A DNA stretch of 64,000 nt, taken from Pseudaquabacterium terrae. GTDB taxonomy: Bacteria > Pseudomonadota > Gammaproteobacteria > Burkholderiales > Burkholderiaceae_C. Under the pieces are notes generated by a model that saw only the letters and a list, made by a program, of their open reading frames with translations, had not been told where the DNA came from and ran no database searches. The stretch spans positions 434,001 to 498,000 of the forward strand of contig NZ_JABRWJ010000006.1 in assembly GCF_013266755.1 (NCBI RefSeq), read 5' to 3'. A program made the translations under genes and the position numbers. Positions 60,441-61,667 of this stretch are shown one piece after another (within the stretch, counting starts at the first letter, position 1; every line of letters starts with the position of its first letter).

Positions 60441-61667
60441 TTAGACGCCGCGCGCGCGATCGGCGTGGAAGCGCTCGCGCCAGGCGGCGAAGGCGTTGAC
60501 GTCGAGCGCCTCGCGGATCTCGCGCATCAGGTTCAGGTAGTAGTGCAGGTTGTGGATGCTGGTCAACATCGGGCCCAGCATCTCGCCGCAGCGGTCGAGG
60601 TGATGCAGGTAGGCGCGGCTGACTCCCCCGGCGCTCGCGCCGGTCAACGATCCCGCGCTCGCGCCGGTCAACGATCCCGCGTTCGCGCCGGTCGGCGATC
60701 CCGCGTTCGCGCCGGTCGGCGATCCCGCGCAGGCGTGGCAAGTGCAGCTCTCGTCGATCGGCCGCGGGTCGGTCTTGTGGCGCGCATTGCGGATGCGCAG
60801 GTCGCCGTAGCGCGTGAACAGGTGGCCGTTGCGCGCATTGCGCGTCGGCATCACGCAGTCGAACATGTCGACGCCAGCGGCGACGCCGTCGACCAGGTCC
60901 TCCGGCGTGCCCACGCCCATCAGGTAGCGCGGCTTCCCCGCCGGCAGCCGCTGCGGCGTGTGCGCGACGATGCGCTGCATGTCCTCCTTCGGCTCGCCGA
61001 CCGAGACGCCGCCGATCGCGTAACCGGGCAGGTCCATCTCGACCAGGTGGCTGAGCGACGCCTCGCGCAGCGACTCGAACATGCCGCCCTGCACGATGCC
61101 GAATAGCGCGTTCGGGTTCTGCAGGCGTTCGAACTCGGTCTGGCAGCGCCCGGCCCAGCGCAGGCTCAGCTCCATCGACGTGCGGGCTTCCTTCTCCGTC
61201 GTCAGGTGGCCGCGCACTTCGTACGGCGTGCACTCGTCGAACTGCATCACGATGTCCGAGTTCAGCACCGTCTGCACCTGCATGCTCACTTCGGGCGTCA
61301 GGAACAGCTTGTCGCCGTTGACCGGCGACGCGAACTTCACGCCTTCCTCGGAGATCTTGCGCATCTCGCCGAGCGACCAGACCTGGAAGCCGCCCGAGTC
61401 GGTGAGGATCGGCCTGTTCCAGCCCTCGAAGCCGTGCAGACCCTTGAACTGCTCGATGACCTCGAGCCCCGGGCGCAGCCACAGGTGGAAGGTGTTGCCG
61501 AGGATGATCTGCGCGCCCATGTCGAGCAGCGACTGCGGCAGCACGCCCTTGACCGTGCCGTAGGTGCCCACCGGCATGAAGATCGGCGTCTCGACGACGC
61601 CGTGGTTCAGCGTCAGCCGGCCGCGACGGGCCAGGCCTTCGGTGGCCAGCAACTCGAAGTGCAACAT
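60441..61667 (-). CDS. tgt: Queuine tRNA-ribosyltransferase with 8-residue repeat insertion
   Basis: Exchanges the G at position 34 of Asn, Asp, His and Tyr tRNAs for preQ1. 408 residues, against 375 in E. coli. The catalytic blocks are intact: [25 protein letters not shown] and [10 protein letters not shown]. Zinc ligands are Cys308, Cys310 and Cys313 (in CTCHAC) and the later His in LTSIHNL. Directly after Cys313 come four copies of an 8-residue repeat (AGSPTGAN twice, AGSLTGAS twice), then SRAYLHHL. The extra ~33 residues equal the length difference. Confidence 0.93.
60631..60726. repeat. Four tandem 24-bp repeats inside tgt
   Basis: Units 60631-60654 and 60655-60678 are identical, as are 60679-60702 and 60703-60726; the two types differ at three positions (C/T early, AA/GG later). 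The unit GCGCTCGCGCCGGTC plus AACGATCCC is a multiple of three, so the frame is kept. It adds 32 residues beside the zinc site of Tgt. Confidence 0.95.

Follow-up and report, generated by a model that had tools for sequence, protein, structure and literature searches.

The closest described relatives of the locus analyzed here are the bacterial tRNA-guanine transglycosylases (Tgt; TIGR00430), with Zymomonas mobilis Tgt (1ozm, 1q2r) among them. W326 of the Zymomonas enzyme is part of an aromatic homodimer hot spot, and the Tgt dimer interface has been studied with inhibitors, as one report describes (PMC5395182). In human QTRT1, as an excerpt of another report has it, zinc is bound by three cysteines and one histidine (PMC6165067).

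The tgt gene examined here lies in the window, i.e., the whole 64-kb stretch of DNA analyzed. Its product shares with Zymomonas mobilis Tgt the whole fold and the zinc and active-site motifs, and the gene lies near queA; unlike that enzyme, it has 36 residues rather than 3 from the third zinc cysteine to the serine of SRAY, and V rather than W just before this serine. Much of the added length is encoded by four tandem 24-bp units. We consider, with a likelihood of about three in four, that these units arose by slippage-type duplication, that the surface loop holding them tolerates insertions and is probably disordered, that the Tgt is a working enzyme, and that the expansion is near neutral.

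The tgt gene and its 24-bp array

The gene, its zinc site and the nearby pathway gene are located as follows.

60441..61667, minus strand: tgt (queuine/preQ1 tRNA-guanine transglycosylase), 408 aa, from the open reading frame and profile matches
60729..60746, minus strand: zinc-site motif CTCHAC (C308, C310, C313), directly N-terminal of the array
60552..60554, minus strand: H372, at the position of Zymomonas H349, in a column that does not vary among 52 sequences
63677..64000, minus strand: 3' portion of queA, whose product follows Tgt in queuosine synthesis, from a profile match

The initial annotation had regarded this Tgt as intact apart from the repeat, and the profile searches bear this out. 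The protein scored 491.8 bits against TIGR00430 (curated equivalog cut-off, 306.75) and 508 bits against PF01702 (cut-off, 26.3), it was the only Tgt match in a search of its own genome, and its reading frame remains open through the array. In the alignment of 52 sequences, the columns of C308, C310 and C313 are invariant, as are those of LTDSGG with D90 and of a further active-site motif, so the zinc and active-site columns are kept; we take Zymomonas H349 to be the fourth zinc ligand, and the roles of the active-site and zinc residues are in part presumed here. By every feature tested, the product is a Tgt and is predicted to be a working enzyme.

Both queA and queG, its partners in the pathway, were found. 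queA and tgt usually adjoin; here they are separated (61803-63649) by a gene for a SigJ-like sigma factor and by open frames that match nothing in NCBIfam or Pfam. On the other side of tgt, a 668-aa frame on the minus strand (58404-60410) has an N-terminal part rich in Ala, Pro and Lys and a match to an SNF2-related domain (30.0 bits; cut-off, 24.9), with defence helicases matched only weakly.

The array itself consists of the following units.

60633..60728, minus strand: the array, four 24-bp units in the order A-A-B-B, in codon register, from direct reading and TRF
60705..60728, minus strand: unit A1, AGSPTGAN, from the unit pattern
60681..60704, minus strand: unit A2, AGSPTGAN, identical to A1, from the unit pattern
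60657..60680, minus strand: unit B1, AGSLTGAS, 3 nt off A, from the unit pattern
60633..60656, minus strand: unit B2, AGSLTGAS, identical to B1, from the unit pattern

Four 24-bp units in two identical pairs, in frame directly after the third zinc cysteine, had been claimed at 60631..60726; all of this stands except the extent, which becomes 60633-60728 in codon register, within a loop of 36 residues. TRF reported 60631-60730 with a period of 24, 4.2 copies, 94% matches and a score of 158, the highest TRF score in the window. Within each pair, the units are identical over 24 nt, whereas 3 of the 24 nt separate A from B; these differences fall in two codons, both amino-acid changing (P/L and N/S), which are too few for excluding selection. 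C-terminal of B2, the protein reads AGGV and then SRAYLHHL. Measured from the third zinc cysteine to SRAYL, the loop exceeds by 32 residues that of G001, the closest relative by Tgt, and 29 of its 36 residues are Gly, Ala, Ser or Thr. When the degenerate unit pattern was searched with up to 3 mismatches, the window gave 4 matches against 0.04 expected, a number that 0 of 100 shuffles reached. The array thus has the head-to-tail units, high identity and above-chance occurrence of a coding minisatellite.

Repeats of this kind are not unusual in the genome. A scan of 1.79 Mb (22% of the genome, in stretches picked non-randomly by contig) for arrays with a period of at least 9, at least 2.8 copies, at least 85% matches and a score of at least 90 found nine, including the tgt array, which ranks fifth by score; three of the nine have a period not divisible by 3. 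The repeat itself is therefore ordinary here, and the interest lies in its site: a loop that tolerates insertions would permit such an array within a conserved enzyme. Near-perfect minisatellites elsewhere in this genome include L214:5612-5728 (18 bp x 6.5), L234:17565-17661 (25 bp x 3.9), L229:7670-7770 (28 bp x 3.6) and L207:9980-10055 (21 bp x 3.6).

Palindromic elements of Rickettsia insert in frame in genes, and the codon choice of the loop is odd enough to bring a mobile or interspersed repeat element to mind, one that would have landed here in frame: 5 of the 10 Gly codons in the loop are GGA (4 of which go back to a single codon in the duplicated unit), whereas the remainder of tgt uses GGA for 0 of its 36 glycines and three neighbouring genes use it for 3 of 104. 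This origin is nonetheless extremely improbable, as the A unit at up to 3 mismatches occurs in the whole genome only as these four copies, all in tgt, no inverted repeat was found within 60400-60900, and the predicted RNA folding energy of the array is no better than that of shuffles (z 0.36; equalled or bettered by 122 of 200 shuffles). Lacking further genomic copies at this threshold, the array was not assigned to an interspersed element. A source within the gene was also considered, since the 3' end of tgt (60471-60490) resembles the unit at 80-85% over 20 nt; the ungapped matches in the window outside the array (1 at 17/20 or better to the B core, 3 at 16/20 or better to the A core) mark this resemblance as weak, and copying of a seed from there was dropped.

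The array totals 96 bp, less than an ordinary short-read length. It is placed inside a 617,637-bp contig, the frame is preserved, and the units are of two kinds, all of which makes an assembly or sequencing artefact very unlikely, even though tandem repeats can lead to assembly errors, as an excerpt of one report states (PMC6868369).

Loop length across the class, family and genus

The zinc-site region had been described as normally tight, which seems to hold for the other families sampled but not for the family of the window. Outside the family, we drew 124 genomes evenly from the class, of which 122 belong to other families and 119 of these gave a Tgt match; after exclusion of five partial or fragmentary matches (G189, G199, G202, G208 and G247), 114 were judged by span. 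In 103 of these, the net length of the match deviated by no more than a few residues from the most frequent value, which corresponds to a 3-residue loop, with small inserts possible by this measure. The remaining 11 were longer and their loops were read, giving 3 residues in 11/11, so their extra length lies elsewhere in the protein. A long loop as a general Tgt feature was thereby ruled out, being absent in the 11 longest of the 114 other-family matches.

The family sample comprised 150 genomes from 126 genera, with completeness of at least 90%, and a Tgt match was obtained in 150/150. Among the 130 Tgt proteins read, 129 had the zinc-loop motif, with loop lengths (number of proteins) of 3 (40), 4 (6), 9 (6), 10 (2), 11 (2), 14 (18), 15 (1), 16 (46), 21 (2), 22 (2), 23 (2), 31 (1) and 36 (1). 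Loops of 3-4 residues thus account for 46/129 and loops of 9-36 for 83/129, the window's 36 being the longest. Of the 20 genomes left unread, 17 have a single unbroken match whose span resembles that seen with 16-residue loops, and the others are G053 and G163, with a partial gene, and G069. Among the best 80 of 586 candidate loci from the genome collection, a set biased towards close relatives, loops range from 3 to 24 residues. In the remaining one of the 130 proteins read, the Tgt of G033 (L327, G033:C45:36420-36750), LDCYAS stands as the zinc motif, so that two of the three zinc cysteines are absent while the rest follows; this may be an error.

Within the genus, a Tgt match was found in 19 of 21 genomes and in neither G006 nor G017 (both with 6-7% contamination). 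The 18 genus loops comprise fourteen of 4 residues and one each of 11, 12, 19 and 36, to which G012 adds another of 4. The count of units in sister genomes, as the initial annotation had proposed, shows that the four-unit array is absent from G001, the nearest relative by Tgt, whose loop has 4 residues. The 19-residue loop belongs to the congener G004 (L003), which has a separate 9-bp repeat at this point, in three perfect GGCACCGGG units; elsewhere in the family, the Tgt loop of L268 contains 2.6 copies of a 9-bp repeat. When DNA repeats were flagged by script, 140 distinct Tgt sequences (105 with a loop of at least 9) yielded the window, G004 and a trivial 6-bp repeat; in the family sample, L268 was flagged in addition to the window and that 6-bp case. 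Tandem repeats in such loops are therefore rare besides that of the window. The zinc-loop stretch of L050, a metagenome-assembled record titled Bordetella parapertussis, is the same as that of L011 from the window's genus, so the title of this record looks wrong.

With the loop left out, a Tgt tree was computed from 92 of the 140 distinct sequences, comprising 24 of the 72 whose loop has 16 residues and all 68 whose loop has a different length. The tree was made by a fast method, with 31 of 89 inner branches open and seven long end branches that include all five outgroup rows. The window is sister to G001 (SH-aLRT 99), and both belong to a clade of 15 rows, 12 of them with a 4-residue loop; three further genus members (L006, L010 and L019) lie outside it. 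Parsimony on this tree, which has many weak forks, needed 12 changes between short and long loops. Altogether, the surface loop of Tgt takes insertions repeatedly within this family, over a range of 3 to 36 residues.

It could also be that the insert is an inherited, family-wide one, retained in the window and lost from its relatives, so that the copy number alone is new. Most long loops have the borders xG...G[FV], and the window's loop, with AG...GGV, resembles them in this respect. However, a 4-residue loop is present in the sister and in most of the congeners read, so retention would require several parallel losses, and we regard this history as quite improbable.

Predicted structure and the dimer interface

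The AlphaFold model of the window Tgt, built with 52 sequences, has a pTM of 0.82 and a mean pLDDT of 77, and matches Zymomonas Tgt with a Foldseek TM of 0.91 by target length. In keeping with the flexible Gly/Ser/Thr/Ala loop that the initial annotation had claimed, the modeled zinc-site loop is predicted to be disordered, with pLDDT near 30 over the repeat: residues 318-345 are below 50, and block means are 32 and 28 over 321-340. The model is also weak at 35-38, 95-102 and 114-117. By comparison, in the AlphaFold model of a Variovorax Tgt (L042), the blocks holding a conserved 16-residue insert at this site average 90 and 95, with a helix at 313-319 and weak stretches at 36-44, 65-82 and 93-104. 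This insert occurs in 30/49 rows of the L042 alignment and the window's repeat in 1/52 rows of its own, so this contrast is partly one of alignment depth; the low pLDDT of the repeat may partly reflect the absence of the repeat columns from other rows. As modeled, the window's loop is probably disordered.

Directly C-terminal of the loop lies the segment that corresponds to the dimer hot spot.

60600..60623, minus strand: V349 followed by SRAYLHH, with V349, Y353 and H356 aligned with W326, Y330 and H333 of Zymomonas Tgt

V349 (60621-60623) stands at the position of the hot-spot aromatic, and F80 is aligned with F92 of Zymomonas Tgt; these correspondences were mapped via the G001 protein. This alignment places the loop at the edge of the homodimer interface, whose adjoining rim the loop may slightly change. 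In 14 of 18 genus loops (loci L003-L019), most of them of 4 residues, V, I, T or M and thus no aromatic precedes SRAY; an aromatic is likewise missing there in 3 of 126 loops from the remaining family sample, all three of 9-11 residues. The three latter cases lean towards a link between loop and interface in sequence comparison, whereas the predominantly 4-residue genus cases give no such lean.

These data bear on the proposal that the loop is functional, tuning homodimer stability or tRNA docking, with copy number as a rheostat and the array under selection. The insertion point just before the residue aligned with W326 and the frequency of non-aromatic residues there in the genus speak for it, as do the Variovorax-type inserts, which are conserved and in one case predicted to be well ordered, so that inserts at this site can be structural. 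Yet the window's repeat differs from the 16-residue insert and is predicted to be disordered, and most non-aromatic genus loops have only 4 residues, so aromatic loss is not tied to length in the genus. A functional loop is thus unlikely. We would give very little credence to a broader version, in which the zinc-site loop of the family is an evolving dimer-tuning module with ordered and disordered inserts beside the hot spot. Under it, in the window's genus, which has mostly lost the aromatic, loop length would be governed by a slippage-prone repeat, and with it Tgt activity and tRNA wobble modification, varying by strain.

Origin of the array and comparison with known systems

Under slippage-type duplication in a tolerant loop, a 24-bp seed would have been duplicated by replication slippage or unequal recombination; the copies would then have diverged at 3 positions into A and B, and each would have been duplicated again to give A-A-B-B. 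Since 24 bp preserves the frame and a disordered loop rich in Gly, Ala, Ser and Thr would spare catalysis and zinc binding, the expansion would be near neutral. Between the window and G001, 30 of 189 fourfold sites in the flanks differ; set against this divergence, the identical pairs and the 3/24 difference between A and B fit an older A/B duplication and a recent duplication of each. With identical pairs and no array in G001, the unit duplication looks recent. Slippage as the mechanism is inferred from the architecture of the array.

If the array is only tolerated, the locus cleanly illustrates how, in one family, insertions are gained repeatedly in the single weakly constrained loop of a conserved enzyme. 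If it is functional, a slippage-prone repeat would be tied to the Tgt dimer interface, and the lengths of 3 to 36 residues would offer a natural series for probing interface tolerance. In the open-access literature, no repeats in tgt were found by title or abstract start, broader minisatellite searches gave nothing on the site, and a search on Tgt at the same level (titles and abstract starts) did not turn up the 16-residue Variovorax/Acidovorax-type insert.

Three further systems invite comparison. A conserved signature indel within residues 289-339 of Xanthomonadales tgt is described as order-specific in the available part of its report (PMC3568101); like the window's array, it is an insertion in this gene, though of one residue. 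The Variovorax/Acidovorax-type insert (AGxSGVxWxxGGRxGF) shares the insertion point and Gly-rich borders with the window, but it is conserved, has high predicted order in the one case modeled and lacks the 24-bp repeat, whereas the window's loop does not match its pattern, is repetitive and is predicted to be disordered. Finally, bacterial in-frame coding minisatellites of the VNTR type resemble the array in their period divisible by 3, near-identical units and variants in blocks; the array, classed as a minisatellite by architecture alone, differs from them in lying in a conserved enzyme beside its metal site.
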